The notes below the pieces were generated by a model. That model was not told the DNA's origin, ran no database searches, and saw nothing but the letters and a program-made list of their open reading frames with translations. 64,000 nucleotides of DNA from Hypomesus transpacificus (lineage: Eukaryota; Chordata; Actinopteri; Osmeriformes; Osmeridae), in the NCBI RefSeq assembly GCF_021917145.1, contig NC_061073.1:10321430-10385429 (forward strand), given 5' to 3'. Below are positions 1 to 59,800 of this stretch, piece after piece (the first letter of the stretch is position 1; the number at the start of each line of letters is the position of its first letter). The position numbers and the translations under genes are program-made.

Positions 1-271
1 AGCAGCCAGGCCTATATGTTCCTTGTTGCACTGTAATGTATTCAAAAAGTTCATTGTTAGATTGAAAATAATTTCCTGGTCATCGGTTAAAGCTACTACT
101 TCTGTAATCTACATTCACATCACTTGAAATTTAGCTTACATGCCTCCCATTTACCTGAACTGTTGCCGTGACAACAACATTGAAACGAGTGAAGAAGGTC
201 TGAATCCACAATGCATTATTTCATAGCCTAAAAGCAATCAAAGAAGGTGACATGTAGACTGAGGATAAGAG

Positions 272-890
272 TTAACCTTGTGATAATGGCGCAGGTTCCT
301 CGACAGGTTGCCCGACCATCAACAGTTCTGCACAACCTGTAATAAAATATAATATACTTCATTACATACATAGAAATAAAGATGAGTATTACAGAGAAAG
401 TTTGGTTAACTTAAGTTACCTTTGCCATGTCATGTCACTGCATGTGTCATTTGGCACATGCAGTTAAGTTTGGACAAAAGCAGACTTTCACAGAATAAAC
501 CAGGAAACGTTGAAAAATCTAATTGGCATACGGCACCCTTTGCCATCTTTGTATGTGACTTCATAGAGGCCCACGAGTAGAACGCAAACCAACTGTGGAT
601 GTCTGTTTGCATGAGCACTCAATTGCTATCTCGGACAAGTCATTCAGGCCCTTAACATGTTCTAGTATTTCAGATACAAATTAATAAACCCCTTAATATA
701 TGTCTGAAATACTAGAAAACTGTAAGAAATGTTAGTTACTGACTTGACAGTAAAATTAAAATTGGTTAGGAATACAACATAACATGTAGTTACACAGTTA
801 AAAGTCTAACCATTTGGTGACAATAAATAAAACATCATCACCATAAATAAAACAGATTTCAGAAGAAAAAAAAATATATATACTGTATAT

Positions 891-961
<71 letters not shown>

Positions 962-3900
962 CACTGTCCTTACCAGTCTGTGGATATGTGAGATTTCCTT
1001 CATCAACCTCACTCTCAGCATCGACCTCACGCTCAGCATCGACCTCACGCTCAGCATCGACCTCACGCTCAGCATCGACCTCACTCTCAGCATCGACCTC
1101 ACTCTCAGCATCGACCTCACTCTCAGCATCGACCTCACTCTCAGCATCGACCTCACTCAACTGTAGGTTGTCTAATAAAATAAATTATATTGCCTTAATG
1201 AATTATGAGGTTAAAGTGTTATAAATTGTCCACTCACAATGTGTGTTCCATTTTGCTACCATACATTTGCTAGAAACAGGTCAAATCTTTTATGTAAACC
1301 ACTTTAAATAGCCGTACCTTCAATTTCTATCTCGTCAAGTGTTTTGCCTTGAAGGTTTCTGAGAGACCCTTTCTCCATGGCAAGGAGCAGTTTGGATATT
1401 TTGGCCAGCTGGGTAGTAGCCTCAGGAAGTCTGTAATATTCACGATGAACGCGAATATCGTGGCCAAGGAAGTTAGCAACTTGGTCCAATTCGTGATTCT
1501 TGAGGTTCAAGATCTGAGACAAAGTTGCAACATGTTTGCGTAATTGTGTTGACCTGAGGAGCTCAGGGTTTTCGGCCCCACATTCACTGGCATAAAGCCT
1601 CAAACAGTCCTGTCCTCTGTAGGGGGTCAGACAATGAGGTCTGGCAAAAAGGAACAGGTTTTCGTCCAGAACACCACAGTCTTTTCTTTTTTCTACTAGG
1701 CGTGTTATGGCATTCACCATGTCTGGTGAAAGTAACACTGCAACTTTCCGGCCTCTTTTACCCCTTAATTCAACACGACTAAAGTGTTGACAAAGGTGAA
1801 GTTCAAATTCTGTCAGTCCAAATGCGACGTCCTTATGCAAGGGACTTGTGTCTCTCTCCAAAAAGCCATTCATCGGCATCTTTGAAATTTCTCCCCCTCT
1901 TCTCCTGTTAAAAAGTATTACGTTTGCCATGGTGGCTTTACACAGTTCACTGTATGATTTTGATGAACTATGGTGTTCCAAGTCTTTCAATGCTTGTTCT
2001 GTAGTCTTCTCAAGATGTCTGTGAAGACGTTGAACATCTTCTGTGAAAGGAAGAGTGGAAGGCTTGTTAAACTTCCGCTCGTTCAGCGTAGTTAAAGCGG
2101 TGTGAGAGATGAGTTCAGACCACTTTGTAGAATAGAGAGTTTTGAAACTCTGGGTTGACTTTATCAGCGTACTGTCTTCTGCCATGAGTGCTCTGCAATA
2201 TAAAATATCACTGACTTTCTGTAGTGAGTGACCTAACTTTAGAGCAAGGGATGGAGTACGGAAGCAGTGCTTTTCTTCATCATACCCAGATACTTTCTTG
2301 ACCGCTTTGATGACCACATCAAAATTTGCAGGTCTCACAGCATCCTCAAGAGTATGTATTGAGAATTCCTTGCGAAGCGTAAGCAGAAGTCTTCCAGTCT
2401 CTCTGAGTTGCTGGCGAATGTACTGATGTTTGGTGGGATCCTGTCCATATTTGTTGAAGAATGATTGGGCCAGCTGAAGAATGGAGAAGTCACTTCGCAC
2501 AGTAGAAGTTGTCTCATCATCTTTCATAACAGCTAATATGTTCCAAACACCTGGTGATATCTGCTGACACAGTGATGACTCATTCATAGAGGCCAAAGAC
2601 AAAACTTTATTTCTTCCAGTCTCTGAAGTAGCTTCTACTGGTTTTGAAGAACATTGTCGAACATGTCGCCACAGATCTCGCCGGAGATATAATGCCTGGC
2701 AGTAGATGCAGTGAATGTAGTCTTTTGCATTGTACTTTTTCTTTGATGTGCGTCTTAGTTTTAGTGATCCAACTCCACTCACCAAGACCTCTGAGTTATG
2801 ACTGTGGTTTCCCTTGTTGCGAAGCTTTAAAAGCATTTTCATACGTTTTTTGGACCTCTTGGGAAGACTTAAAACTTGAGCAACATCTGCATGTGTTTTC
2901 TCATGAGTTTTTAAGTGACGTGTAAACTTTGTCTGTATCTTTCCACAAATGTAGCAGTAAGTTCTATTTCTGAGCAAGGCTGATGTATTTGAGACATTTT
3001 CCGCTGTAGCATCAGCACCATCATCAACCATAATGCCTTCGGCATCAGCGTTTCCTACTTTGGCAGTAACTCTTGATACTTCAAGCTGAGTTGTGCTGAT
3101 CATATCTTCAGGTACTGATTCTGCATCTTTAGAAATTGACTCTCTGTCTTCCTGTACAAAACTTCCTTGGTGGTGTCTTTTCTTTTTGGAAGCAGACTTG
3201 CTGGTGGAGACCTCACAATTCTGTACTTGTTTGTGACTGATTTCTAAAGGCTCTGATCTGTCATCCCACGAGCTGTTTGAATCATCTATGGAATCAGGAA
3301 CATACTCCTCTTCTGATGATGCCACCTCACTTGAACTTTGTTCTGTACAGACCTGATAATGATTAAAAAAACATTTATATTTTGTATACTTGGAAAGCAT
3401 TTCACCGAGAATAATTCTACTAAAAAGCTTACCACTTGCAGAAGTTCAGTGACGTCCACATTGTGTTTAATATAACACTTTTTGTGCCAGGACTGATTGC
3501 AAACTAGACAGAGAAAATTAAGAATTTATAAAGAAAGGCAGCATGCTAAGTACTTAAAGTCAGTGCAGCAGCAAATGACTAATTTTGAACATATAGCACA
3601 GCTACACATGGAATAGTTTTTTGGACCTTTGTACCTTTACATCTCACACCACTCCATTTCAGAGGAGAAAAAGGTCCTCCACATGTAACACATTTTTCTA
3701 AACTTGACATTTCGACAGGGATGACATCATGATCACAGTCCTGTTTACAAAAAAAAGGAGTGTAATCGTAAGACAGAAATTTGATCCTAACGAACACTTG
3801 TGTAGTGTAGAATATCAAAACCAATTAATCGTTTGTACTATTTTCCTATTTTAACATGAATTAAGGATAAAAGTGACATGATTTGTATGTGTTATTATCC

Positions 3901-6900
3901 CTGTTGTGAATGAAATTGTTTAGAAATTAACTTAAAACCTTAAATCTATATTAATTTAAGTAAATTAAACACCTGTAATAAAAAAAGAAAAAAACTTAAC
4001 AAACAAACAAACTAAAACAGAACAAAAACATACACTCACTGAGGAAAAGTTTGGACCCAACTTCTCTTCCTCATTAAACTGAGAAGGTGGATCTAAACTT
4101 TTGACTGGTAGTGTACATCTTAACACAAGGCTGAAGTGGATTTATAGTCTTCATAATGTATTAACTTAAATTTGAAATTACACAAAACCTGTGAATCTAT
4201 ACACAGCTGAATGCAATTCTTATGAATTCATATTTAAATAAAGTTAATGTATAACTGCTGAATATCATTCTCATGACTTTATTTTAGACAATAATTATGC
4301 CTTAAAAGATGAAACTTACCTCTAGTGTGTTGCCTGAAAAGGATCCGCATGCGTCCACATCCTCAGCCTGGCATGGCATCTCTTTGGAGATCTGAGATGT
4401 AAAGAACAATCACTGAATGAGAGTTTGTTTCTCATGTACAGTACTCAGTCCTCCTTATTCCTGCACCTTACATGTTGAGTATTACACAGGACCTGTGTGT
4501 CTGCGCACTTCTTAATGTACTTTCATTCCTTTGTACATGTAATTTCAAAACTCAATCCTCCAAATTCCTGCACCTTACATATAAAGGTTACATCGTACTT
4601 GTGTGTCTGAATACTTCTGAATATCATTCTCATGACTTTATTTTAGACAATAAATATGCCTTAAAAGATGAAACTTACCTCTAGTGTGTTGCCTGAAAAG
4701 GATCCGCATGCGTCCACATCCTCAGCCTGGCATGGCATCTCTTTGGAGATCTGAGATGTAAAGAACAATCACTGAATGAGAGTTTGTTTCTCATGTACAG
4801 TACTCAGTCCTCCTTATTCCTGCACCTTACATGTTGAGTATTACACAGGACCTGTGTGTCTGCGCACTTCTTAATGTACTTTCATTCCTTTGTACATGTA
4901 ATTTCAAAACTCAATCCTCCAAATTCCTGCACCTTACATATAAAGGTTACATCGTACTTGTGTGTCTGAATACTTCTGAATATCATTCTCATGACTTTAT
5001 TTTAGACAATAAATATGCCTTAAAAGATGAAACTTACCTCTAGTGTGTTGCCTGAAAAGGATCCGCATGCGTCCACATCCTCAGCCTGGCATGGCATCTC
5101 TTTGGAGATCTGAGATGTAAAGAACAATCACTGAATGAGAGTTTGTTTCTCATGTGCAGTACTCAGTCCTCCTTATTCCTGCACCTTACATGTTGAGTAT
5201 TACACAGGACCTGTGTGTCTGCGCACTTCTTAATGTACTTTCATTCCTCTGTACATGTAATTTCAAAACTCAGTCCTCCTTATTCCTGCACCTTACATGT
5301 TGAGTATTACACAGGACCTGTGTGTCTGCGCACTTCTTAATGTACTTTCATTCCTTTGTACATGTAATTTCAAAACTCAATCCTCCAAATTCCTGCACCT
5401 TACATATAAAGGTTACATCGTACTTGTGTGTCTGAATACTTCTGAATATCATTCTCATGACTTTATTTTAGACAATAAATATGCCTTAAAAGATGAAACT
5501 TACCTCTAGTGTGTTGCCTGAAAAGGATCCGCATGCGTCCACATCCTCAGCCTGGCATGGCATCTCTTTGGAGATCTGAGATGTAAAGAACAATCACTGA
5601 ATGAGAGTTTGTTTCTCATGTGCAGTACTCAGTCCTCCTTATTCCTGCACCTTACATGTTGAGTATTACACAGGACCTGTGTGTCTGCGCACTTCTTAAT
5701 GTACTTTCATTCCTTTGTACATGTAATTTCAAAACTCAATCCTCCAAATTCCTGCACCTTACATATAAAGGTTACATCGTACTTGTGTGTCTGAATACTT
5801 CTGAATATCATTCTCATGACTTTATTTTAGACAATAAATATGCCTTAAAAGATGAAACTTACCTCTAGTGTGTTGCCTGAAAAGGATCCGCATGCGTCCA
5901 CATCCTCAGCCTGGCATGGCATCTCTTTGGAGATCTGAGATGTAAAGAACAATCACTGAATGAGAGTTTGTTTCTCATGTACAGTACTCAGTCCTCCTTA
6001 TTCCTGCACCTTACATGTTGAGTATTACACAGGACCTGTGTGTCTGCGCACTTCTTAATGTACTTTCATTCCTTTGTACATGTAATTTCAAAACTCAATC
6101 CTCCAAATTCCTGCACCTTACATATAAAGGTTACATCGTACTTGTGTGTCTGAATACTTCTGAATATCATTCTCATGACTTTATTTTAGACAATAAATAT
6201 GCCTTAAAAGATGAAACTTACCTCTAGTGTGTTGCCTGAAAAGGATCCGCATGCGTCCACATCCTCAGCCTGGCATGGCATCTCTTTGGAGATCTGAGAT
6301 GTAAAGAACAATCACTGAATGAGAGTTTGTTTCTCATGTACAATACTCAGTCCTCCTTATTCCTGCACCTTACATGTTGAGTATTACACAGGACCTGTGT
6401 GTCTGCGCACTTCTTAATGTACTTTCATTCCTTTGTACATGTAATTTCAAAACTCAATCCTCCAAATTCCTGCACCTTACATATAAAGGTTACATCGTAC
6501 TTGTGTGTCTGAATACTTCTGAATATCATTCTCATGACTTTATTTTAGACAATAAATATGCCTTAAAAGATTAAACTTACCTCTAGTGTGTTGCCTGAAA
6601 AGGATCCGCATGCGTCCACATCCTCAGCCTGGCATGGCATCTCTTTGGAGATCTGAGATGTAAAGAACAATCACTGAATGAGAGTTTGTTTCTCATGTAC
6701 AGTACTCAGTCCTCCTTATTCCTGCACCTTACATGTTGAGTATTACACAGGACCTGTGTGTCTGCGCACTTCTAAATGTACTTTCATTCCTCTGTACATG
6801 TAATTTCAAAACTCAGTCCTCCTTATTCCTGCACCTTACATGTTGAGTATTACACAGGACCTGTGTGTCTGCGCACTTCTTAATGTACTTTCATTCCTTT

Positions 6901-9900
6901 GTACATGTAATTTCAAAACTCAATCCTCCAAATTCCTGCACCTTACATATAAAGGTTACATCGTACTTGTGTGTCTGAATACTTCTGAATATCATTCTCA
7001 TGACTTTATTTTAGACAATAAATATGCCTTAAAAGATGAAACTTACCTCTAGTGTGTTGCCTGAAAAGGATCCGCATGCGTCCACATCCTCAGCCTGGCA
7101 TGGCATCTCTTTGGAGATCTGAGATGTAAAGAACAATCACTGAATGAGAGTTTGTTTCTCATGTACAATACTCAGTCCTCCTTATTCCTGCACCTTACAT
7201 GTTGAGTATTACACAGGACCTGTGTGTCTGCGCACTTCTTAATGTACTTTCATTCCTTTGTACATGTAATTTCAAAACTCAATCCTCCAAATTCCTGCAC
7301 CTTACATATAAAGGTTACATCGTACTTGTGTGTCTGAATACTTCTGAATATCATTCTCATGACTTTATTTTAGACAATAAATATGCCTTAAAAGATGAAA
7401 CTTACCTCTAGTGTGTTGCCTGAAAAGGATCCGCATGCGTCCACATCCTCAGCCTGGCATGGCATCTCTTTGGAGATCTGAGATGTAAAGAACAATCACT
7501 GAATGAGAGTTTGTTTCTCATGTACAATACTCAGTCCTCCTTATTCCTGCACCTTACATGTTGAGTATTACACAGGACCTGTGTGTCTGCGCACTTCTTA
7601 ATGTACTTTCATTCCTTTGTACATGTAATTTCAAAACTCAATCCTCCAAATTCCTGCACCTTATATATAAAGGTTACATCGTACTTGTGTGTCTGAATAC
7701 TTCTGAATATCATTCTCATGACTTTATTTTAGACAATAAATATGCCTTAAAAGATTAAACTTACCTCTAGTGTGTTGCCTGAAAAGGATCCGCATGCGTC
7801 CACATCCTCAGCCTGGCATGGCATCTCTTTGGAGATCTGAGATGTAAAGAACAATCACTGAATGAGAGTTCGTTTCTCATGTACAGTACTCAGTCCTCCT
7901 TATTCCTGCACCTTACATGTTGAGTATTACACAGGACCTGTGTGTCTGCGCACTTCTAAATGTACTTTCATTCCTCTGTACATGTAATTTCAAAACTCAG
8001 TCCTCCTTATTCCTGCACCTTACATGTTGAGTATTACACAGGACCTGTGTGTCTGCGCACTTCTTAATGTACTTTCATTCCTTTGTACATGTAATTTCAA
8101 AACTCAATCCTCCAAATTCCTGCACCTTACATATAAAGGTTACATCGTACTTGTGTGTCTGAATACTTCTGAATATCATTCTCATGACTTTATTTTAGAC
8201 AATAAATATGCCTTAAAAGATGAAACTTACCTCTAGTGTGTTGCCTGAAAAGGATCCGCATGCGTCCACATCCTCAGCCTGGCATGGCATCTCTTTGGAG
8301 ATCTGAGATGTAAAGAACAATCACTGAATGAGAGTTTGTTTCTCATGTACAATACTCAGTCCTCCTTATTCCTGCACCTTACATGTTGAGTATTACACAG
8401 GACCTGTGTGTCTGCGCACTTCTTAATGTACTTTCATTCCTTTGTACATGTAATTTCAAAACTCAATCCTCCAAATTCCTGCACCTTACATATAAAGGTT
8501 ACATCGTACTTGTGTGTCTGAATACTTCTGAATATCATTCTCATGACTTTATTTTAGACAATAAATATGCCTTAAAAGATAAAACTTACCTCTAGTGTGT
8601 TGCCTGAAAAGGATCCGCATGCGTCCACATCCTCAGCCTGGCATGGCATCTCTTTGGAGATCTGAGATGTAAAGAACAATCACTGAATGAGAGTTTGTTT
8701 CTCATGTACAGTACTCAGTCCTCCTTATTCCTGCACCTTACATGTTGAGTATTACACAGGACCTGTGTGTCTGCGCACTTCTAAATGTACTTTCATTCCT
8801 CTGTACATGTAATTTCAAAACTCAGTCCTCCTTATTCCTGCACCTTACATGTTGAGTATTACACAGGACCTGTGTGTCTGCGCACTTCTTAATGTACTTT
8901 CATTCCTTTGTACATGTAATTTCAAAACTCAATCCTCCAAATTCCTGCACCTTACATATAAAGGTTACATCGTACTTGTGTGTCTGAATACTTCTGAATA
9001 TCATTCTCATGACTTTATTTTAGACAATAAATATGCCTTAAAAGATGAAACTTACCTCTAGTGTGTTGCCTGAAAAGGATCCGCATGCGTCCACATCCTC
9101 AGCCTGGCATGGCATCTCTTTGGAGATCTGAGATGTAAAGAACAATCACTGAATGAGAGTTTGTTTCTCATGTACAATACTCAGTCCTCCTTATTCCTGC
9201 ACCTTACATGTTGAGTATTACACAGGACCTGTGTGTCTGCGCACTTCTTAATGTACTTTCATTCCTTTGTACATGTAATTTCAAAACTCAATCCTCCAAA
9301 TTCCTGCACCTTACATATAAAGGTTACATCGTACTTGTGTGTCTGAATACTTCTGAATATCATTCTCATGACTTTATTTTAGACAATAAATATGCCTTAA
9401 AAGATTAAACTTACCTCTAGTGTGTTGCCTGAAAAGGATCCGCATGCGTCCACATCCTCAGCCTGGCATGGCATCTCTTTGGAGATCTGAGATGTAAAGA
9501 ACAATCACTGAATGAGAGTTTGTTTCTCATGTACAGTACTCAGTCCTCCTTATTCCTGCACCTTACATGTTGAGTATTACACAGGACCTGTGTGTCTGCG
9601 CACTTCTAAATGTACTTTCATTCCTCTGTACATGTAATTTCAAAACTCAGTCCTCCTTATTCCTGCACCTTACATGTTGAGTATTACACAGGACCTGGGT
9701 GTCTAGACACTCAAATATATCACATACCAGTTAATATTTATAAATATAAGATCAGTATAAATCTATCTACATGTGACAGTTTGTAAAATTATAGTACTGA
9801 ACAAGTTGAAATAGTGTAGTCTGATTAAGTCTTTCTGCCAAATTGGCTTTTTTAGGCACTATGCTCATCACTTCTATATTTTTGACTATATTGACACTGT

Positions 9901-11021
9901 ACTACAACTTGATATACCCTTTAAAATTGTGTTCAAAGCTAGTAGAATGATCCTTGACAGTATCGTTACAATTCTATATACCTTGCTTCTCCACGGCCAG
10001 TCAGAATCACCATAATTATAAGTGATTTCTTCCCCTGGACCAATATCTTTGAGTGCAAATAAACAGAGATAGGGTCTTCCATCCACTCTTGTAACCTTCA
10101 TTTTGCTGTTTGGATTTGCCTCTTCATCATTTACCAGTCTCCCTAATGATCCATCCTCTCTGGCAGCATCAACACTGAAATATCAAGTATGCAATAAGAA
10201 TAATTACACCACGGAAGGAAAATGATTTAGCATATTTAGTGTTAGCATGTCTGGAAATGTTTACATCACTGTGTTAAGATTCAAATTTAGAAAAAAACGC
10301 ACTTTAAAACAGCCACATACCATAACTGTTGTCCATTGAACTGGAAATCAAACATAAAAACCTTGAGTGCATCATGATAAACTTTCAATCGGTTTTCTTG
10401 TTCCTTTCTACTTATGACTTCCCCTCTGTACTCAATAAGGAAATCTCCCTTTGGAAAGCACCGGCAGCTGAACACACCCCGACCTGGAGGTACATATAAT
10501 AAACAAAGTACAATAATAAACTTTAAACAATGCAGAGTTGTTAAATAGTAGCAATTGAGATTATTAACTCTCTCAAAATCTGTTAATTTATTTAATGTGA
10601 TGTCTTTCTGTGATTAGTTAAACTATTTTTTAACTTTTCTAAAATGTTTCTGTGGATTAATCCATAAACAATTATTAAATAAAGTATCTATCTAGATATA
10701 CAATTATCTTCCCAAGAAGATATAAAATATAAACTATAAAAAATAACAGCTTCTATTTTGAGCAGTTGATTGTCTCCTTTGAAATAAGAAAGATGTTCTG
10801 ATCATATTACAAGATCTATTCTCCTAATGTGCAGTTTAAAAATAGATTATAACCTTGTATGTACGAACTCGGGAAACCTTTGCTAAATAAACTCACAACT
10901 CACCTTTATATGAATTTATATATTTGACATCAAACCCTTCCTTATCTTTACCCAAGGAGCAATAATAACTAGCATCATCTTTAGGATTTGTTTTCGCTCT
11001 CTGTGGCCTTGTTCCTGCCAT
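272..11021 (-). CDS. SET-domain / tandem-exon / tyrosine-recombinase composite gene (about 1318 aa)
   Basis: Coding exons in transcript order: 10904-11021, 10321-10483, 9982-10174, fourteen 72-bp exons between 9486 and 4320, 3635-3740, 3433-3503, 1318-3352, 974-1171 and 272-336. All junctions are GT/AG and in phase. Residues 1-158 form a KMT5A-like SET domain, with KGRGVF, GDFLIEYRGEVI, CVDAARE, LGRLVN and GEEITYNYGD. Next come 14 copies of a 24-residue segment, then a Cys/His module (CVTCGG, RCKVCNQSWHKKCY) like a C1 or PHD finger. The big exon carries an acidic stretch, a C2H2 finger (CYICGK...HLKTH), a C2HC finger (CIYCQA...HVRQC) and a tyrosine-recombinase fold with Arg in RRRGGE, Lys in RGKRGRK, Arg in LRKHVAT, LGHD and Tyr in HREYYR. 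The tail repeats SEVDAE. No reverse transcriptase is visible. The SET and recombinase assignments are solid. That all exons form one transcript is inferred from phase. It resembles Crypton-type recombinases; a domesticated or still mobile element is possible. Confidence 0.8.
876..960. repeat. (TA)n microsatellite
   Basis: About 80 bases of TA dinucleotide lie in the intron next to the SEVDAE exon of the composite gene. Confidence 0.95.
1002..1157 (-). repeat. Coding 18-bp minisatellite (SEVDAE repeat)
   Basis: This lies in exon 974-1171 of the composite gene. About nine 18-bp units encode S/R-E-V-D-A-E on the minus strand. The acceptor attttattag at 1172-1173 joins in phase to the recombinase exon, and the donor gtaagg is at 972-973. 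Confidence 0.8.
4031..4118. mobile_element. Palindromic Tc1-like miniature element
   Basis: The ends are imperfect inverted repeats: TACACTCACTGAGGAAAAG on the left, and the complement of the right end reads GTACACTACCAGTCAAAAG. The phrase 'actaccagtcaaaagtttgga' is common in fish Tc1-type miniature elements. It lies in the intron between the exon array and the zinc-module exon. There is no coding capacity. The family name is from memory. Confidence 0.5.
4257..9699 (-). repeat. Tandem array of 14 identical 72-bp cassette exons with their introns
   Basis: Exons (minus strand, 72 bp each) begin at plus positions 4320, 4679, 5038, 5504, 5863, 6222, 6581, 7047, 7406, 7765, 8231, 8590, 9056 and 9415. 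Each has acceptor ttacatctcag and donor gtaagttt, and starts and ends in phase 0. It encodes 24 residues beginning ISKEMPCQAE and ending FSGNTLE. The spacing is 359 bp, or 466 bp where a 107-bp piece of intron is duplicated. The exon copies look identical by eye; the introns differ at a handful of positions (for example gat, gaa or gtt beside the donor). Because 72 is a multiple of three, any number of copies can be spliced in or skipped without changing frame. Confidence 0.9.
10321..11021 (-). other. SET N-terminal exons and start codon of the composite gene
   Basis: The start codon is at 11019-11021. The first coding exon (MAGTRPQ...) ends after one base of a Gly codon, and the second exon supplies GRGVF, the usual SET entry motif. 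A probable 5' non-coding exon ends at 11504, with a gtaaga donor on the minus strand. An acceptor, ctgcag, lies just before GAGATGG at the coding exon. An upstream ATG in the 5' exon would run into a stop soon after the junction, so it is not the start. Confidence 0.75.
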
Positions 11022-11504
11022 CTCCTGCAGAGATCAGATGTTAACTTGAGCAACAACACATTACTGGATACAATATGATTTAATGATATTAGATGTTATT
11101 TTTCCAAAACGGAAGCTAGCTAGCTCTAGTTAGCTTCGGTTACCTAGCAACCTAGCATAATACTCGTAGCAATGCTACTACCTGCTAGTGTTACTTGTTA
11201 GGGATATGAAACATAACCATTAGTCAATGTGCAAGCAGCTGTTCTGTTGAATAAATATATTTGTAAATCTGATTTTGAAAGAGTCAGTATGCCTACGTGC
11301 CTCCCCAGCCAAGAACCTCTCCGCACGTCACTGGCCACTTGCTAATAACTAACGCTAGCTAAACTGTCATAGATCAGATGTTTTGGTTCATACAAACATC
11401 AAGTAACCTAATCCATTCTGCATAATTTACCTTTAGTCATTGTTTTAGCAGATTACATAACAATATGTACCTAAATGTGTAAAGAATATTAAATGGGTCT
11501 TACC

Positions 11505-12435
11505 TCGTCCTCCACGCATGCAGGGATGAGAGGTGTTCAATTAGAAAGTACTGATGTTTCGCGGCAAAACTTGACGGATTGTACCACGTTGATAGAAGAG
11601 GAGGGGTATGACAAAATAAGAATTCCTTTTTCGTTTCTAAAGAGCATATTGTTTGATTTATTCAGGAAGAAGAAAACAATTTACTTACGTAATATTTTGT
11701 TAATTTCATTCAATATTTCAAGATACATGGTTTATAATACATTTTGCTTTTATCGTATTGCTAACTCATCCCCTGTGTAAATAGCGATTTGAATTGGAAG
11801 GACAGTGTAGTAATTATCAGGACCTTCCGGCAGACAACCAATCAGCATAAGACGCTGTGTGCATATTCATGAAGTCTTGCTAGTACACAACCTGCCGTAG
11901 GGGGCGCTGTGGTGATACACAGATTGTACACACAAATCATGTTTATATGTATTAAACGGACATCTTGTTTTTTTTGCATTTTTAGGGTTAATAGACCAAT
12001 AGAAACCATTCTACACTTTTAGAATTTGGTCGAAATTAGCAGGACACTGCTCCTGTCCTGTTAATTCAAAATGTCCTTCTAGTGTGGTGTGTATTCGGAC
12101 CAATTGTCCTGTTAAAACACATTGACAAACACACAGTTACACACACACACACACACACGCATCTATGCCACACACACACACTGACCCACATCTACACACA
12201 CATCACAAGAACACCTGAACCATATTATTGTCATGAGGCACTTCTCCTTTCATGTTCCTGCACCAGTGTCCTGGTGGGGTCACTTCCCCTTTTGTGTTGT
12301 TTGTGAAATATTTCATTTGACTCAAATGAGCTGGAACAGGAAGCGGTGGCCTGAATCGAGAACAGAAGCTGTGTTTGGTGTCTTCAGTGTGAGCTGGTGA
12401 AGTGCTGCAGCTGAGCTGTTGTTGTGTTGCTGCAG
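11505..12435. other. 5' flank of composite gene and intron upstream of first visible ankrd27 exon
   Basis: No exon is recognised here. It should hold the promoter of the minus-strand composite gene. A CA/CACA microsatellite lies at about 12128-12205. No ankrd27 exon upstream of 12436 can be found. Confidence 0.5.
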
Positions 12436-15400
12436 GCGGCTGAACGACCCCTCAGTAGTGACGCCCTTCTCCAGAGACGACCGAGGATACACCCCCCTTC
12501 ATGTAGCTGCTCTCTGTGGTGAGGCCCAACCCTGTCTCTCCCCCCAGCCCTCTCTCCCCCCAGCCCTCCCCCCTCCCAGCCCTGTCTGCCCTCACCCCCC
12601 TGCCCTCACCCCCCAGCCCTCTCCCCCTGTCTGCCCTCTCCCCCTGTCTGCCCTCACCCCCCAGCCCTTTACCCCTGTCTGCCCTCTACCCCTGTCTGCC
12701 CTCACCCCCCAGCCCTGTCTCTACCTGTCTGCCCTCTCCCCCTGTCTGCCCTCTCCCCCTGTCTGCCCTCACCCCCCAGCCCTTTACCCCTGTCTGCCCT
12801 CTACCCCTGTCTGCCCTCACCCCCCAGCCCTGTCAATACCTGTCTGCCCTCTCCCCCTGTCTGCCCTCTCCCCCTGTCTGCCCTCACCCCCCTGTCTGCC
12901 CTCACCCCCCAGCCCTTTACCCCTGTCTGCCCTCTACCCCTGTCTGCCCTCACCCCCCAGCCCTGTCAATACCTGTCTGCCCTCTCCCCCTGTCTGCCCT
13001 CTCCCCCTGTCTGCCCTCACCCCCCTGTCTGCCCTCACCCCCCAGCCCTCTCCCCCTGTCTGCCCTCTCCCCCTGTCTGCCCTCACCCCCCAGCCCTGTC
13101 TCCCTGTCACCCTCCAGACTCTCTCCTCTAACGCCAGTCGTCTGCTCTTGCAGGTCAGTCTGGATTGATCGACCTGTTGGTGTCGAAGGGAGCGTTGGTC
13201 AACGCTACAGACTACCATGCCCTCACGCCTCTGCACCTGTCCTGCCAGAAGGGGTACCAGGGGGTCACGGTGAGGGAACGACACAACCTGGATGGACAGA
13301 AGATGAAACAAGGATGCATTCTTCTTTGGCGGAACATTAATTGATTTGTTGTTGTTTAATCCTCCCCTACTTTTCTCTCTCTGCCCCTCCCTCCCTCTCT
13401 CTCCCTCTCCCCCTCTCCATCTCCCTCTCTCTCTCTCTCTCTCTCCCCCTCTCTCTCTCTTTCTCTCTCCCTCCCTCCCTCCCTCCCCTCTCCTCCTGTC
13501 TCTGTCCAGCTGCTGCTCCTGCACTACAAGGCTAACACAGATGCTCAGGACAACAATGGGAACAGCCCCCTGCACCTGGCCTGTATGTACGGCCACGAGG
13601 ATGTGAGTGGAGATACCCTGCTTCCTGTCCAGTCAGATCCCAACACATCCTGCACTGCTCTCCTAACTCCTCGTGTTTGGTTCCTCAGTGCGTCAAGGCG
13701 CTGGTGTATTACGACCTCCACACCTGCCGCCTCAACATCCAGAACGAGAAGGGCGACACGTGTCTGCATGTGTCTGCTCGCTGGGGCTACGAGGGGGTCC
13801 TCCAGGTGCTGCTGGAGAACGGAGCCAGCACGGACATCTGCAACAAGGCCAGGGAAACCCCCCTGCACTGCGCTCTCAACTCCAAGGTCAGGAAGAGGCC
13901 CGCACTGCCTCAGTAGACGCTGCCTCGGTAGACGCTGCCTCCGAGCGCTGCCTCTGTAGACGCTGCCTCAGTAGACGCTGCCTCCAAACGCTGCCTCGAT
14001 AGACGCTGCCTCAGTAGACGCTGCCTCAGTAGACGCTGCCTCAGTAGACGCTGCCTCCGAACGCTGCCTCGGTAGACGCTGCCTCAGTAGACGCTGCCTC
14101 AGTAGACGCTGCCTCAGTAGACGTTGCCTCAGTAAATGCTGCCTCAATTGACGCTGCCTCCGAACGCTGCCTCAGTAGACGCTGCCTCAGATTGCTGCCT
14201 CTGTAGATGCTGCCTCAGTAGACGCTGCCTCAGTAGACGCTGCCTCCGAGCGCTGCCTCGGTAGACGCTGTCTCGGTAGTTTTGTTAAATGGGATGGAAG
14301 ATTACCTTATATGGCCAATCTTTGTTTAGTTTTGTTGTCTCTGCAATAGTCAGTTTGGACTGGGGATTATGTGAAATGGTTGTTTGATCAAATTGTCCAG
14401 ATTGTGAATTAGTATCATTTGCACAGATTGTGAATTAGTATAATTTGCACATGAATAGGAATTACTGGAACAGATGTTATGTCAGGATTTTATGTCATTT
14501 GTGTTTTAAAGCTTTTAAGCTGACTTGAAACAGGAATTCCAAAGTGATTGACTCAGTGTGGGAGAATAGCAGCCTAACTAATGTCTGATCCTGTTATACA
14601 AGCCTCGTGCTACTGTGCTGCTGCTTCACTGTGCTGCTGCTTCACTGTGCTGCTGCTTCACTGTGCTGCTGCTTCACTGTGCTGCTGCTTCACTGTACTG
14701 CTGCTTCACTGAGCTGCTGCCTCGCTGCTGCTTCACTGTGCTGCTGCTTCACTGTGCTGCTGCTTCACTGTGCTGCTGCTTCACTGTGCTGCTGCTTCAC
14801 TGTACTGCTGCTTCACTGTGCTGCTGCCTCGCTGTGCTGCTGCTTCACTGTACTGCTGCTTCACTGTGCTGCTGCTTCACTGTGCTGCTGCCTCGCTGCT
14901 GCTTCACTGTGCTGCTGCTTCACTGTGCTGCTGCTTCACTGTGCTGCTGCTTCACTGTGCTGCTGCTTCACTGTACTGCTGCTTCACTGAGCTGCTGCCT
15001 CGCTGCTGCTTCACTGAGCTGCTGCCTCGCTGCTGCTTCACTGTGCTGCTGCCTCACTGTGCTGCTGCCTCACTGTACTGCTGCCTCACTGTGCTGCTGC
15101 CTCACTGTGCTGCTGCCTCACTGTACTGCTGCCTCGCTGCTGCTTCACTGTGCTGCTGCCTCACTGTGCTGCTGCCTCACTGAGCTGCTGCCTCACTGAG
15201 CTGCTGCCTCACTGCCTCACTGAGCTGCTGCCTCACTGCCTCACTGAGCTGCTGCCTCACTGTGCTGCTGCCTCACTGTGCTGCTGCCTCACTGTGCTGC
15301 TGCCTCACTGTACTGCTGCCTCACTGTGCTGCTGCCTCACTGAGCTGCTGCCTCACTGCCTCACTGAGCTGCTGCCTCACTGCCTCACTGAGCTGCTGCC

Positions 15401-18400
15401 TCACTGCCTCACTGTGCTGCTGCCTCACTGAGCTGCTGCCTCACTGAGCTGCTGCCTCACTGCCTCACTGAGCTGCTGCCTCACTGCCTCACTGTGCTGC
15501 TGCCTCACTGAGCTGCTGCCTCACTGCCTCACTGAGCTGCTGCCTCACTGCCTCACTGTGCTGCTGCAGCCTGAACACCAGGATGGCTGGAAGCCTGTTT
15601 GGTTTAGTTGTTTTGCTATATGAATTAATATTGATTGTGAGCAAAATACTTTTTTATAATTTATGAACTAATGCTTTTTCTTTTTTAATGTGTACTAAAT
15701 GCAAGTGTTCAAGTGTTGTTTGTACAGGACCAGGAGTTTCTAACGGGTTTGTCTCTGTTGCAGATTCTGACTCTGTTGGAGTCGACGCGCAATGGAACCC
15801 ATCAAACAGAGAGAAATACTGTAAGTCACATCTTAAGTTTTTAATGGTTTTAGGTTTTCATTTTGTAGAACAATCAGGTTTAGGGATCATTATCCATCAA
15901 ATGCAGTGAGAATGAGTTATGACTAGTGAGCCTACTCATAACGTGTGTGCAGGAAGGAGTGTAGGATGCATGTGATAGTGTTGGCACTGGTCCCAGTGTG
16001 ATGTAGCTCTCTGTCGCCCCCTGGTGGCCAGTCCCCAGGCCGCTCGCCCCCAGTCTCAGACTCTGGCAGCCGACGCTCGTCCCAGTCCAGCTGCTCCTCC
16101 TTCAGCCCCGACGCCCAGCCGGAGGGAGACAGGAGCCGCCAGCGGCAGGTAGGAACCCTCCTGGGAGAACCCTGCTTGGGGGAACCCTCCTGGGGGAACC
16201 CTCCTGGGGGAACCCTGCTTGGGGGAACCCTGCTTGGGGGAACCCTCCTGGGGGAACCCTGCTGGGGGGAAAAACACATCAGTTATTTCGAAAAAGTATT
16301 TCTTTTTCATCTCTTTGTCATGTGCAGGTGGAGAAGCTGCTTCGCGCTGTTGCCGACGGCGACATAGAGATGGTGAGTCTTACTGGCACTCTAAACCTCT
16401 AACACAACACTGTGTTGTCCTAACACCTCGTCTAAAACCCTGTGTGTGTGTGTAGGTGCGCTACCTTCTGGAGTGGGTGGATGAGGAGCCGGAGGAGGAG
16501 GTGGAGGAGGAGGAGGATGCGGAGATGCTCTCTCAGACAGAACTGTGTCATCCACTGTGCCAGTGCCCACGCTGTGCCCCCACTCAGAAGGTCTGATATA
16601 TGACACACAGCTGTGCGTGACCAGGTGTGTGTGTGTGTGTGTGTGTGCGTGACCAGGTGTGTGTGTGTGACGAGGTGTTTGGTGTGTGCTGTGTGTGTGT
16701 GTGTGTGACTCCTGCCTGTGCCCCCAGCTGGCCTGCCTGCAGGCTGGAGGTGTGGGTGTGAACAGCAGCAGCAAGGATGGCTTCACCCCCCTCCACGTAG
16801 CTGCCCTGCACGGCCACGCCTCCCTGGTCACCCTGCTGGCACGCCACGGAGCCAACGTCAACGGCCGCAACCGCCACAGAGCCACGCCCCTCCACCTGGC
16901 CAGCCAGAACAGCCTCACTCAGGTGGGAGGAAGACCTGCTAGTTATCACCGGGCTGGGGGATAACCTGCTAGTTATCACCGGGCTGGGGGATAACCTGCT
17001 AGTTATCACCGGGCTGGGGGATAACCTGCTAGTTATCACCGGGCTGGGGGATAACCTGCTAGTTATCACCGGGCTGGGGATAACCTGCTAGTTATCACCG
17101 GGCTGGGGACAACCTGCTGGTTATTACAGTGCTTGGGACAACCTGCTGGTTATCACAGGACAGGGCTGGGGATAACCTGCTGGTTATTACAGGGCTGGGG
17201 ATAACCTGCTGGTTATCACAGGGCTGGGGATAACCTGCTGGTTATCACAGGGCTGGGGATAACCTGCTGGTTATCACCGGATGTAGAAAACCAGACCATC
17301 CTATTGACAACATTTGTGTTTCATGAAACCATCATCTGTGGTGATAATATAATTCACTAAGTTAGCTTGCAAGCTAACGGAAGCTACTCATTGCTCTGTC
17401 AGTGTAAATGTTAGGTCAACCTGGTTAGTCATTAGATCTACCTCAGCTTTAATACCGACCCTAGTGGAAGAGCTCCTAGGTGGACCCGTGGGGTCAGAGG
17501 TCAACTGGAGCTAATAAAGAAGAGATCTCTAGCATGGCAGCAGTGAGACGCTGACCCTGCGTTCTCCTGAACAGTCCTGTTGATGCACGCTGGTGCCCAT
17601 GTGACGTGTGGAGCGTGTTGTTGCTAGGGAATGATGATGATGCTGTGTTGCAGGTAGTGACATCACTGCTGGAGTGCAATGCCAAGCTGAACAAGAAGGA
17701 TCACTATGGCAACACCCCTTTGATCCAGGCTTGTCTCAGAGGTCACCTGGACACCGCAGTCCTGCTCATCCAGGTACACACACACATAACCCTGTGTAGA
17801 GTGACTGTGTCTCCCTGTGTAGAGTGACTGTATCTCCCTGTGTAGAGTGATGCTGTCTCCCTGTGTAGAGTGATGCTGTCTCCCTGTGTAGAGTGACTGT
17901 CTCCCTGTGTAGAGTGACTGTGTCTCCCTGTGTAGAGTGACTGTGTCTCCCTGTGTAGAGTGACTGTGTCTCCCTGTGTAGAGTGACTGTGTCTCCCTGT
18001 GTAGAGTGACTGTCTCCCTGTGTAGAGTGACTGTGTCTCCCTGTGTAGAGTGACTGTCTCCCTGTGTAGAGTGACTGTGTCTCCCCGTGTAGAGTGATAC
18101 TGTGTCTCCCCGTGTAGAGTGACTGTCTCCCTGTGTAGAGTGATGCTGTCTCCCTGTGTGGAGTGACTGTGTCTCCCTGTGTAGAGTGATACTGTGTCTC
18201 CCCGTGTAGAGTGACTGTCTCCCTGTGTAGAGTGACTGTGTCTCCCTGTGTGGAGTGACTGTGTCTCCCTGTGTAGAGTGACTGTGTCTCCCTGTGTAGA
18301 GTGACTGTGTCTCCCTGTGTAGAGTGATGCTGTCTCCCTGTGTAGAGTGACTGTGTCTCCCCGTGTAGAGTGATACTGTGTCTCCCCGTGTAGAGTGACT

Positions 18401-21400
18401 GTCTCCCTGTGTAGAGTGATGCTGTCTCCCTGTGTGGAGTGACTGTGTCTCCCTGTGTAGAGTGATACTGTGTCTCCCCGTGTAGAGTGACTGTCTCCCT
18501 GTGTAGAGTGACTGTGTCTCCCTGTGTGGAGTGACTGTGTCTCCCTGTGTAGAGTGACTGTGTCTCCCCGTGTAGAGTGATACTGTGTCTCCCTGTGTAG
18601 AGTGACTGTGTCTCCCTGTGTAGAGTGACTGTCTCCCTGTGTAGAGTGATGCTGTCTCCCTGTGTGGAGTGACTGTGTCTCCCTGTGTAGAGTGATACTG
18701 TGTCTCCCCGTGTAGAGTGACTGTCTCCCTGTGTAGAGTGACTGTGTCTCCCTGTGTGGAGTGACTGTGTCTCCCTGTGTAGAGTTACTGTGTCTCCCCG
18801 TGTAGAGTGATACTGTGTCTCCCTGTGTAGAGTGACTGTGTCTCCCTGTGTAGAGTGACTGTCTCCCTGTGTAGAGTGACTGTGTCTCCCTGTGTAGAGT
18901 GACTGTGTCTCCCCGTGTAGAGTGACTGTCTCCCTGTGTAGAGTGACTGTGTCTCCCTGCGTAGAGTGATACTGTGTCTCCCCGTGTAGAGTGACTGTCT
19001 CCCTGTGTAGAGTGACTGTGTCTCCCTGTGTGGAGTGACTGTGTCTCCCTGTGTAGAGTGACTGTGTCTCCCTGTGTAGAGTGACTGTGTCTCCCTGTGT
19101 AGAGTGACTGTCTCCCTGTGTAGAGTGACTGTGTCTCCCCGTGTAGAGTGACTGTCTCCCCATGTAGAGTGACTGTGTCTCCCTGTGTAGAGTGATACTG
19201 TGTCTCCCCGTGTAGAGTGACTGTCTCCCTGTGTAGAGTGACTGTGTCTCCCTGTGTGGAGTGACTGTGTCTCCCTGTGTGGAGTGACTGTTTCTCCCTG
19301 TGTAGAGTGACTGTGTCTCCCTGTGTAGAGTGACTGTGTCTCCCTGTGTAGAGTGATGCTGTCTCCCTGTGTAGAGTGACTGTCTCCCTGTGTAGAGTGA
19401 CTGTGTCTCCTTGTGTAGAGTGATACTGTGTCTCCCCGTGTAGAGTGACTGTGTCTCCCCGTGTAGAGTGACTGTGTCTCCCTGTGTAGAGTGACTGTGT
19501 CTCCCCGTGTAGAGTGACTGTGTCTCCCTGTGTAGAGTGATGCTGTCTCCCTGTGTAGAGTGACTGTCTCCCTGTGTAGAGTGACTGTGTCTCCCTTTGT
19601 AGTGACTGTGTCTCCCGGTGTAGAGTGATGCTGTCTCCCTGTGTAGAGTGACTGTGTCTCCCTGTGTAGAGTGACTGTGTCTCCCTGTGTAGAGTGACTG
19701 TGTCTCCCCGTGTAGAGTGACTGTGTCTCCCTGTGTAGAGTGATGCTGTCTCCCTGTGTAGAGTGACTGTGTCTCCCTGTGTAGAGTGACTGTGTCTCCC
19801 TGTGTAGAGTGATGCTGTCTCCCTGTGTAGAGTGACTGTGTCTCCCTGTGTAGAGTGACTGTGTCTCCCTGTGTAGAGTGATACTGTCTCCCTGTGTAGA
19901 GTGACTGTGTCTCCCTGTGTAGAGTGACTGTGTCTCCCTGTGTAGAGTGACTGTGTCTCCCTGTGTAGAGTGATGCAGTGGTGAACCTGGCTAACCAGCA
20001 GGGGAACACGGCGCTGCATGAGGCAGTGAGGGGGGGCCACCTGGGGCTGGTGGAGCAGCTGCTTGAGGCTGGAGCCCTGGTCCACCTGAGGAACAACAGG
20101 CAGAGGACCCCCCTGGACTGTGCCCAGGAGACAGGCGGCAAGGTAACACACACACACACACAGCCATTACATTCTAAACACCAGATAAAGCTACGTGTCT
20201 CAGACAAGAGATATCAAAAGTCACTTCTTTTTTTTTTTCATTATTTTTTAAGAACACTGAAATCCTGAGGATTCTTCAGAAAGCGTCTGGACTCTCCCCC
20301 GACGCTGAACCAATCAAACTGCTCTCTGTGCCAAAGGGCACTCTGGGTAAGACTGCTTCCTGCCAGTTACTGTTGCTATGACACAATTTCCTGTCTCAAT
20401 GTGGCAGTAGAAATGGATCAACACGATAGGGAACAGGGACCCTGGTAGCTCACCAGATAAGTGCTATCGTAAAACCTTGCTGTCTTGTCTCTCCAGCTCA
20501 TTCGTTCGTCCAGAGACTGAAGCCCCAGGATCAGGAGCAGAGCAGGCGGCAGAAGCTGGCTCACTCCATCAGCAGGTGGACAACGCTCTGGAGCAAGCGC
20601 TTCTCCCGTTTAACTTCTTTTAGTTTGGGATCTGATATAAGGTTACTTTTACAATGTGGTATGTCAATGTAGCCAAGGTAGATTGGTTAAACTAGTCCTC
20701 CTTTAACCTATGTACGCGTCTTAAACTCACCTCAAGTATGTAACAGGCCACCCGTGCCAGCAAAGAGCTGGCTTTTCGTTGGCGTAGCTGATAGTGTTAG
20801 CGCTTGAGATGTTGGAAGTGAAGGGTTCGAATCAGGACGAATGTCTGCCGAGTGTACCTCCGATGGGGGCGTGGCCCTGTTACATGATCACAGACCGCTT
20901 CTTCAGTCCGACCGCAACACTGTTAGAACTGACCCTCCTGATGCGGATCAGTATTTACACCTCGCTGTGGATAACGGCGTCTGGGTGAAGTGATGTGAAT
21001 GACGTTTGTTTTTAGGATCCAGCATATGAAGAAAGGTCTTCCCAGAGAGAGAAGTGTTCCCTCTCTGCCCTCCGCTGCTCGCCCTCAGGTACCCTCACCC
21101 CTCACACCCTCACACTCCTCACCTTTCCCTCACACCCCTCACCCCACCCTGTGATCTGCTGTTGTTGTTGTTTGTAGCAGAACTTATTCATATTTGGATG
21201 TAAGCCAGCTGATATCTGGTCCTCCGGGCGTCCATCCTGGTGTGTTGTTCCCCAGGAGGTTGATGGCCGAGGGGAGAGAGGCAAGCTGAGGAGGGGGGAG
21301 ACCCTGGAGAGCTGTGGGCCCTTCAGCCGGTCAGGGAGCCCCGTGCAGGGGGCCAGAGACAGGGCCGGAGACAGGGCCAGACCCCTGGGTCGCTGTCACA

Positions 21401-56800: not shown

Positions 56801-59800
56801 CCGTGAGTGACGTCATGTGCTGCAGGACAGGACAACCGTGGACACATGCAGTTCACACAGCCCAGAGGCTGACCTCCTCTCATCTTAACTCTCCCATCTC
56901 TCCTCCCTCCTTCACTCCCTCCTGCACTCCCTCCTTCACTCCATCTTCTCCTGCTTCAGAACCTGAATTCAACAGGTAAGAACTCGTCCAGCAGCGACGG
57001 ACCCAAGTTCCCCGGAGACAAGACAAGTTTGGGCCAGAACAACCAGAGGAAAGGCATCCAGGTGCTGCCGGACGGTGAGACGTCCACCCTGCTGCCGCCA
57101 CACTGCCAAACACTGGCAACCCTAACTTCATCTGTTCCCACCCTCACCAGGGAACACATGTAGTGGGGTTTAGGACTCAGTTCTGGGCCCGGTCTGTCCC
57201 TGAGAGACTGTGACCCTGAGAGACTGTGACCCTGAGAGACTGTGACCCTGAGAGACTATGACCCTGAGAGACTGTGACCCTGAGAGACTGAGACCCTGAG
57301 AGACTGTGACCCAGAGAGACTGTGACCCAGAGAGACTGTGACCCTGAGAGACTGAGACCCTAAGAGACTGTGACCCTGAGAGACTGTGACCCTGAGAGAC
57401 TGTGACCCTGTAGCAGCCTGGTAGCAGCCTGGCAGCAGCTGTGGTGTGTGCTGGTGTCCTGGCAGCAGCTGTGGTGTGTGCTGGTGTCTTGGCAGCAGCT
57501 GTGGTGTGTGCTGGTGTCCTGGTAGCAGCTGTGGTGTGTGCTGGTGTCCTGGCAGCAGCTGTGGTGTGTGCTGGTGTCCTGGCAGCAGCTGTGGTGTGTG
57601 CTGGTGTCCTGACTGCCCTTCCTCCCCCTGTGCTGGTGTCCTGACTGCCCTTCCTCCCCCTGCAGGGCGAGTGACCAACATCCCCTCGGGGATGGTGACG
57701 GACCAGTTTGGGATGATCGGTCTGCTGACGTTCATCCGAGCGGCGGAGACGGACCCTGGCATGGTGCACCTGGCCCTGGGCAGCGACCTTACCACCCTGG
57801 GGCTCAACCTCAACTCACCTGAGTACGCACGCTCACACACTCACACACACTCTTATTCTCCAGAGAAATACAGCTGTTTACAGTTTTACAGTTGTGGGTG
57901 ATGGTATTGAATGAATGAATGAATGAATGAATGAGTGATTTTTTTTATTTCAGACAATTTACCACAAAAGTGAACAACATACATATTCAGCTCAGCCTCC
58001 CATTACATATTCATACATCCATTTTGAACATAAATAGAAACTGATAATATACACAAGATTTCTAATTGAATAAACTTGTAAGTATACATACCTTCAGATA
58101 TGAATTAATACAATTTGTCTGAAAAGGGGTATAAAGAAGCAAAAAAAAATATATATATATAGATATATACACACATATATACATCCAGTATACATATTCA
58201 TGTATTCTTGCTGCAGTGTGAATAAAGAGTGTAATGATCTCCCTCCACAGAAACCTCTACCCCAAGTTTGCTTCCCCGTGGGCATCAGCTCCATGTCGAC
58301 CACAAGACATCGGTAAGAGCACGCTCACACACACATGCTCACACACACGCGCACGCTCACACAAGCATGCACAGCCAAAACCAGCATTCATGTTAACCAT
58401 GTTCCCATGTCCCTCCAGATTTTCATGTTCCCTCGGAGTATCTCACCAACATCCACATCAGGGACAAGGTATGTCTGAGCTGGATATATATAAAGTAAAC
58501 AGCAATCTAGATAATATATGTATAAATGTAATCTGGGTGTGTTTAAAGTAAACAGTAATCTTGGTGTGTATAAAGTAAACAGTAATCTGGGTGTGTATAA
58601 AGTAAATGGTAATCTGGGTGTGGATAAAGTAAGTGGTAATCTGGGTGTGTATAAAGTAAGTGGGATTCTGGGTGTGTATAAAGGAAGTGGTAATCTGGGT
58701 GTGTATAAAGTAAGTGGTAATCTGGGTGTGTATAAAGTAAATGGTAATCTGGGTGTGTATAAAGTAAGTGGTATTCTGGGTGTGTATAAAGTAAGTGGTA
58801 ATCTGGGTGTGTATAAAGTAAATGGTAATCTGGGTGTGTATAAAGTAAGTGGTATTCTGTGTGTGTATAAAGTAAGTGGTAATCTGGGTGTGTATAAAGT
58901 AAGTGGTAATCTGGGTGTGTATAAAGTAAGTGGTAATCTGGGTGTGTATAAAGTGGTAATCTGGGTGTGTATAAAGTAAGTGGTAATCTGGGTGTGTATA
59001 AAGTAAGTGGTAATCTGGGTGTGTATAAAGTAAATGGTAATCTGGGTGTGTATAAAGTAAGTGGTATTCTGTGTGTGTATAAAGTAAGTGGTAATCTGGG
59101 TGTGTATAAAGTAAGTGGTAATCTGGGTGTGTATAAAGTAAGTGGTAATCTGGGTGTGTATAAAGTAAGTGGTAATCTGGGTGTGTATAAAGTAAGTGGT
59201 AATCTGGGTGTGTATAAAGTGGTAATCTGGGTGTGTATAAAGTAAGTGGTAATCTGGGTGTGTATAAAGTAAGTGGTAATCTGGGTGTGTATAAAGTAAA
59301 TGGTAATCTGGGTGTGTATAAAGTAAGTGGTAATCTGGGTGTGTATAAAGTAAGTGGTATTCTCCTGTCAGCTGGCAGCCATCAAGCTGGCTCGGTACGG
59401 AGAGGACCTGCTGTTCTACCTCTACTACATGAACGGAGGAGATCTGTTGCAACTGCTGGCGGCCGTGGAGCTGTAAGTATCTCCCTGCCTCTGCCTTTAC
59501 CTGCCTCTGCCCTCACCTTCACCTGCCTCTGCCCTCACCTTCACCTGCCTCTGCCCTCACCTTCACCTGCCTCTGCCCTCACCTGCCTCTGCCCTCACCT
59601 TCACCTGCCTCTGCCCTCACCTTCACCTGCCTCTGCCCTCACCTGCCTCTGCCCTCTCACCTTCACCTGCCTCTGCCCTCTCACCTTCACCTGCCTCTGC
59701 CCTCTCACCTTCACCTGCCTCTGTCCTCTCACCTTCACCTGCCTCTGCCCTCTCACCTTCACCTGCCTCTGTCCTCTCACCTTCACCTGCCTCTACCCTC

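Follow-up and report, generated by a model that had tools for sequence, protein, structure and literature searches.

Identical frame-neutral exons in tandem within the predicted SET-recombinase gene of a mobile element in Hypomesus transpacificus

The stretch of DNA considered here (the window), 64,000 nucleotides of Hypomesus transpacificus corresponding to C14:10321430-10385429 of the 437-Mb genome, carries on its minus strand a tandem array of 14 identical 72-bp exons. We hold, with moderate confidence, that this array is the middle of one gene on a recently mobile DNA transposon of 13.7 kb, and that in the encoded protein n cassettes of 24 residues tether a SET domain to a recombinase-like domain. 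An earlier note on this DNA, made from the letters alone, had proposed a linker whose length is set by copy number and splicing. The cassettes and their variable number stand, while the mobile-element gene around them, its dispersed copies, their (TG)n target, the flanking domains and the array of a distant relative had escaped it.

The array extends from 4254 to 9704 (minus strand) and comprises 14 units, each 359 or 466 bp long; Tandem Repeats Finder places it at 4254-9675 in overlapping rows, and the upper limit of 9704 was set by eye. In plus-strand coordinates and in the order of transcription, the cassette exons, all on the minus strand, lie at 9415..9486 (cassette exon 1, the first in the transcript), 9056..9127 (2), 8590..8661 (3), 8231..8302 (4), 7765..7836 (5), 7406..7477 (6), 7047..7118 (7), 6581..6652 (8), 6222..6293 (9), 5863..5934 (10), 5504..5575 (11), 5038..5109 (12), 4679..4750 (13) and 4320..4391 (cassette exon 14, the last), with a spacing between consecutive exons of either 359 or 466 bp. 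As the earlier note had stated, they are identical and frame-neutral: there are 0 mismatches between the copies, the acceptor TTTACATCTCAG and the donor GTAAGT are intact in 14/14, and each exon has phase 0 on both sides and encodes, without a stop, the 24-residue peptide ISKEMPCQAEDVDACGSFSGNTLE. The 72-bp exon was not found elsewhere in the window on either strand with up to 20 mismatches allowed. A 32-base cassette donor pattern has 173 matches in the genome as against 0 for the reversed control, and the cassette repeat is therefore far beyond chance.

An explicit gene model on the minus strand, whose splice sites were all predicted from the sequence, begins in exon 1 (11024) and ends with a stop at -804, beyond the window edge; its frame of 1,429 codons, all exons and the 14 cassettes included, is free of internal stops. 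The predicted protein consists, in this order, of a KMT5A-like SET domain, the 24-residue cassettes, a C1/PHD-like finger, C2H2-like stretches, a tyrosine-recombinase-like domain and a basic C-terminus. A probable leader exon (11503..11560, with the donor GTAAGA at 11503 and an arbitrary end at 11560) is followed by exon 1 with the start codon (10904..11024), and exons 2 (10321..10483) and 3 (9982..10174) hold the first and second halves of the SET domain. Exon 3 ends and exon 4 (3635..3740) starts in phase 0, which is what the earlier note had stated of the neighbors of the array. Exons 4 and 5 (3433..3503) each contribute one half of the C1/PHD-like zinc finger, and exon 6 (1318..3352) contributes two C2H2-like stretches, recognized by eye, and the tyrosine-recombinase-like domain. 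The basic C-terminus, which has counterparts in the relatives described below, is encoded by the exons past exon 7, namely exon 8 (277..336) and two model exons beyond the window that are labeled 10 and 11 (-252..-353 and -569..-804, the latter ending in the stop). Exon 7 itself (974..1171; 198 nt, phase 1/1) contains an in-frame 18-bp coding repeat, (SEVDAE)n, which gives the predicted protein another frame-neutral repeat besides the cassettes.

Exons 1-3 together form a SET domain, which is matched over its full length by Pfam SET (E 5.9e-20; the Pfam scan covered the exons of the gene model only). The 14 best sequences for this domain in the Protein Data Bank (PDB) are all KMT5A/SETD8 (E 1.1e-24 to 1.8e-23), with the next one following at E 2.9e-15, and this histone H4 lysine-20 methyltransferase is the closest solved SET domain to that of the element. 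It differs in that the element's domain is fused to a recombinase-like protein and resides on a mobile element; furthermore, in place of the NH motif of KMT5A, the window and C376 copies have ND, and the one on C11 has NE. The NH of the KMT5A active-site motif is important for this enzyme, and KMT5A-like gene predictions are common in fish. For the zinc finger of exons 4 and 5, Pfam C1_1 gives E 4.4e-6, which is barely above the cut-off.

With respect to the recombinase-like domain, exon 6 matches Pfam Phage_integrase at E 0.0017, under the family cut-off. A structure predicted for the catalytic part (mean predicted local distance difference test score, pLDDT, 70; predicted template modeling score, pTM, 0.64) has Xer recombinases as its 8 best Foldseek matches (probability 0.99-1.00, E 0.005-0.03), followed by type IB topoisomerases and P2 integrase, with Cre lower down among unrelated folds. 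For a model of a longer part (pLDDT 67, pTM 0.44), rows 1-7 are again Xer enzymes (E 0.07-0.33). The motif of tyrosine recombinases comprises an arginine, HxxR, a lysine, the GHD histidine and a tyrosine. In an alignment of four members, the arginine, the lysine, the second arginine, the GHD histidine and the tyrosine are all present in three, and the fourth (C23 at 17.14 Mb) is missing the GHD histidine through a gap. Searches of PHROGs and NCBIfam with the recombinase part gave no useful match, and 0/57 candidate stretches in viral contigs were confirmed as relatives.

The element occupies positions 1..12129 of the window (minus strand), with its 5′ end at 12129, and continues beyond the window edge to a 3′ end at -1603 (in stretch L041), which gives a length of 13,733 bp for the window copy. 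Its ends were set by 16 right-end and 16 left-end matches in the genome (controls 0) together with the flanking (TG)n, and are accurate to a few bases. Pairing of these ends by position yields eight long copies (12.6-15.5 kb) and seven short ones (6.4-9.3 kb), and two further short loci were recognized from one end each. The long copy on C353 was counted as a duplicate of that on C94 and not as a locus, the left flanks of the two being 99.5% identical over 1,424 bp; its two ends remain among the 32, and no other matching pair was found among the flanks compared. C353 (L066/L082) is a small contig, probably a haplotype contig of poor quality; its exon-6 recombinase frame is damaged, and its right flank has no (TG) run. 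After its removal there are at least 7 long loci and 9 short, internally deleted ones. With gaps excluded, the window copy shows 0 mismatches to four of the other loci (4,945-4,951 aligned columns) and 6 and 4 mismatches to two, and the exon-6 frame is present at seven loci with 100% protein identity, in one case with an internal stop codon. A single host gene as the carrier of the array is ruled out by these dispersed copies; if the reading proposed here is right, the array is not to be taken for host-gene variation.

Two of the short copies were read (those on C9 and on C4 at 5.6 Mb), and the long copies were read in part. The short C4 copy runs from window position 12158 to 11068 and then passes into the array. 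The short C9 copy has the same border at 11068, joins the far end of its array to window position 632 onwards, and is devoid of the SET exons as well as of exons 4-7. The remaining seven short loci would share this deleted structure, judging by how long they are and by the lack of SET and recombinase matches there.

Insertion of the element strongly favors (TG)n, and it does so in one orientation. On the sense strand of the gene, a (TG) run of 11 bp or more lies beside 15/16 right ends and 16/16 left ends, the exception being on C353, and the (CA) runs of the 32 flanks measure 3 bases at most. The strength of this one-way preference follows from the fact that TG runs adjoin 31 of the 32 ends, as compared to a (TG) run of at least 12 in 1.3% of 20,000 random 60-mers drawn from window positions 12300-64000. 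Of the (CA)n/(TG)n microsatellite hit by the window copy, a remnant survives at 12130..12207 (plus strand). The ends of the element are imperfect inverted repeats of 25 bp, of which 19/25 positions pair in the window copy; this pairing is equalled or exceeded in 39/5,000 shuffles and 24/5,000 window 60-mers, such that its support is modest. Because the ends sit in a dinucleotide repeat, a target duplication is unreadable. The last bases of the 3′ end vary among insertions, being CTGTAT, CTGTATA or CTGTATAGG ahead of the TG repeat, as would be expected if strand exchange falls within a short core there. An empty site sought by means of the C73 flank was not found, since this flank matched once, at C73 itself.

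The copies differ in the length of their arrays. From the distance between the SET and recombinase exons, the seven long loci have 14 (window), 13, 13, 13, 13, 11 and 17 cassettes, and C353 has about 18. Direct counting gives 14 for the window and 13 for C23, where the spacings match the window's minus one 359-bp unit, and the 13 donor-pattern matches at C4:70 kb agree with the distance-based count. The short C9 copy has 9 cassettes, and the part examined of the short C4 copy (5.6 Mb) has 10. The variable length suspected in the earlier note is thus borne out by 11, 13, 14 and 17 cassettes at otherwise near-identical loci. The acceptor AG and the donor GT are intact and stops are absent in 33/33 cassettes (14 in the window, 9 on C9, 10 on C4). 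In an older copy on C374, whose pieces are 93-98% identical, two cassettes lie in the stretch examined, and the second has an altered donor.

The earlier note was also right about slight variation in the introns, since 7/394 intron columns are variable among the 14 units versus 0/72 exon columns, and its suggestion of a recent expansion or homogenization of the array is supported. The perfect identity of the exons, from which it had argued, has no weight of its own, however. Without the incomplete last unit, the variable columns are 6/394 in the intron versus 0/72 in the exon (Fisher P = 0.60), and for 42 units pooled from four loci they are 2/72 in the exon versus 27/395 in the intron (Fisher P = 0.29). 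Because exon and intron columns vary alike, whole units are homogenized and the identity of the exons is not a signal of selection; selection was accordingly rejected as its cause.

Relatives were recognized by their SET exons on C376 (73%), C11 (56%), C9 at 20.97 Mb (63%) and C7 (53%), plus three weaker ones. The C7 relative (45-53% identity) likewise has an array between its SET exon 3 and its recombinase exon, but one built from another open exon, with 7 copies of 111 nt (TTEDRPGIASRDGPAATQCSDAPVAECTTDKSPTIEK) in phase 0 and a period of 594. These copies are 97% alike according to Tandem Repeats Finder; the donor is found in 7/7 and the acceptor in copies 2-7, the first copy deviating there. 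Two spaced cysteines, noted by eye, apart, no similarity was detectable between this exon and the window cassette. On C376, whose relative stands nearer to the window family than that on C7, 2.6 kb separate SET exon 3 from the recombinase exon; in the parts tested on C376, C11 and C9, no array of long period came to light. The sequences thus favor separate origins of the window and C7 arrays. A bolder reading, which we consider less likely than not, is that of a vertebrate transposon lineage in which a histone-methyltransferase-like domain became fused to a site-specific recombinase with one-way insertion into (TG)n, and in which arrays of frame-neutral exons evolved more than once as an adjustable tether, each insertion having a tether length of its own. 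We do not rate it higher, because the two array origins are themselves an inference. Two related sets of open frames with a recombinase-like part and a similar C-terminus are located at C22:10033782-10037384 (L035) and C25:5224782-5228351 (L038); both have lost the histidine-tyrosine end and have the look of a host gene pair that arose from an element of this kind.

From these findings we infer how the element might operate. The recombinase probably acts on a circular or otherwise free form of the element and inserts it, in a single orientation, into (TG)n microsatellites. In its protein, a SET domain with putative methyltransferase activity would be joined to the recombinase-like domain through n cassettes of 24 residues, each contributed by splicing of its own exon. 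Because every cassette consists of whole codons in a phase-0 exon, gain or loss of a unit would be safe for the frame, and the tether between SET domain and recombinase would change in steps of 24 residues. Pure accident is made less likely by the array at the same place in the distant relative.

Several observations weigh against the tether. Exon columns are no more conserved than intron columns, which leaves the peptide without a signature of selection, and the same is seen in the C7 array, where 2/111 exon columns and 6/489 intron columns are variable (P = 0.65). Both deleted copies examined keep the array yet lack the SET exons, and the one on C9 also lacks exons 4-7, a pattern not accounted for by a pure tether. 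It is also conceivable that the window and C7 arrays go back to a single ancient array that has diverged in its entirety, in which case the latter would be no second origin. As for the two enzyme-like domains, the SET domain may be inactive because ND replaces the NH of KMT5A, and the first histidine, that of HxxR, is replaced by threonine or glycine in 4/4 aligned members of the recombinase. No Foldseek match to the models of the recombinase part reached an E of 0.001 or better, and a sequence-profile search of the PDB with this part gave 0 matches. Finally, a spliced cassette-cassette junction was found 0 times in the genome at up to 2 mismatches, which shows only that no processed copy was found.

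The chief rival to a tether is a passenger satellite, in which a minisatellite unit caught one linker exon and then changed in number by slippage or unequal exchange, the cassettes being mostly skipped or their number neutral. The homogenization of whole units, introns included, and the differences between copies by whole units are what such a satellite would produce, and tandem repeats abound in the window (123 overlapping rows). However, splice signals are intact and frames open in all 33 cassettes, and the corresponding position of the distant relative holds an array of another open exon; both argue against a passenger satellite, which we consider rather unlikely. Less probable still is a role of the array in cis on DNA or RNA, be it as a binding array, an enhancer or a recombination substrate, with coding being secondary. 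This would account for the array having been retained in both deleted copies examined, and among the matches listed, donor-pattern arrays are found at at least 7 of the 9 short loci. Yet the two deleted copies share the border at window position 11068, such that the retention may be one inherited event, and the lack of detectable similarity between the C7 array and the window cassette also speaks against a cis role. That the repeat was collapsed or expanded in the assembly is very improbable, for although tandem arrays are hard to assemble and the C94 locus has a damaged duplicate in C353, the 359/466 spacing recurs in arrays at numerous loci whose flanks differ.

With regard to its surroundings, the element is inserted in antisense orientation into an intron of ANKRD27. 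The exon on one side of the insertion ends at about 8355 of stretch L041, and the exon beyond it lies at 12437..12520 of the window (plus strand, ends approximate); the downstream exon matches solved ANKRD27, and we take the two exons to be consecutive from the mammalian protein. Upstream in the ANKRD27 region, at L041:300-1545, an open frame that starts with MELISWSLNAIDTIFSK lies inside a tandem repeat (by eye) and has AATAAA and an A run on its 3′ side; it looks like a retrocopy or a short retroelement. The window is crowded with minisatellites from 12125 to 62926, for instance a 23-bp unit in about 96 copies at 17790-19973 and a 27-bp unit in about 31 copies at 58528-59363.

Among known systems, Cryptons come to mind first, which are DNA transposons with a tyrosine recombinase. 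According to PMC3212892, non-autonomous deletion derivatives of Cryptons are known in one insect family, and animal Cryptons are reported to be without terminal repeats. The element would resemble them as a DNA transposon with deletion derivatives (PMC3212892) and a putative tyrosine-type recombinase; for the latter, motif and fold ranking point the same way, but the Pfam score, the first HxxR histidine and the E values of the fold matches fall short. It differs by its SET domain, the C1/PHD-like finger, the cassette array and a gene of many exons, also by targeting (TG)n, and perhaps by its imperfect inverted ends, whose pairing has modest support; the lack of terminal inverted repeats is a Crypton trait. 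Crypton terminal direct repeats measure 4-6 bp; a short duplication at the element's ends, which sit in (TG)n, would be indistinguishable from the repeat. Furthermore, animal Crypton groups have no C-terminal domain, whereas the model of the element extends past the recombinase, and so do its relatives. The Crypton-derived domain DUF3504, named in PMC3212892, had no Pfam match at E up to 1 in exon 6 and three relatives. Crypton membership is not shown for the element, which displays neither DUF3504 nor the lack of a C-terminal domain. The DIRS/Ngaro retrotransposons, for their part, are marked by a reverse transcriptase next to the recombinase, and the Pfam scan of the element covered the exons of the gene model.

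A second comparison is with endogenous nimaviruses, large crustacean viruses with telomere-repeat-specific tyrosine recombinases that target (TAACC)n (PMC10871703). Compared by this description only, the shared features would be a tyrosine recombinase, putative in the element, with a C2H2 zinc-binding part, and insertion into a simple repeat (PMC10871703); the difference is that these are large viruses in (TAACC)n, whereas the present element measures 13.7 kb, carries a SET domain and sits in (TG)n. By analogy, the element's mode of action would be that of a DNA transposon whose tyrosine recombinase targets a simple repeat.

With respect to the cassettes, there are coding tandem-repeat genes in which every repeat has its own exon, and these likewise have frame-neutral repeated exons in variable copy number. 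They differ from the present case, where the array belongs to a transposon protein and lies between two enzyme-like domains. No description of a SET-recombinase element or of a (TG)n-specific recombinase element was found in the literature searched, which was covered in part, by titles and opening lines. If our reading is true, the coding length of a mobile element varies by units with the frame kept, and a chromatin-type domain is attached to a recombinase that has a simple repeat as its target. The otherwise near-identical copies with 11 to 17 cassettes would then offer a natural series for tether length, with the array of the relative for comparison. Set beside the systems above, the element is best read as a new variant of the tyrosine-recombinase DNA transposons.

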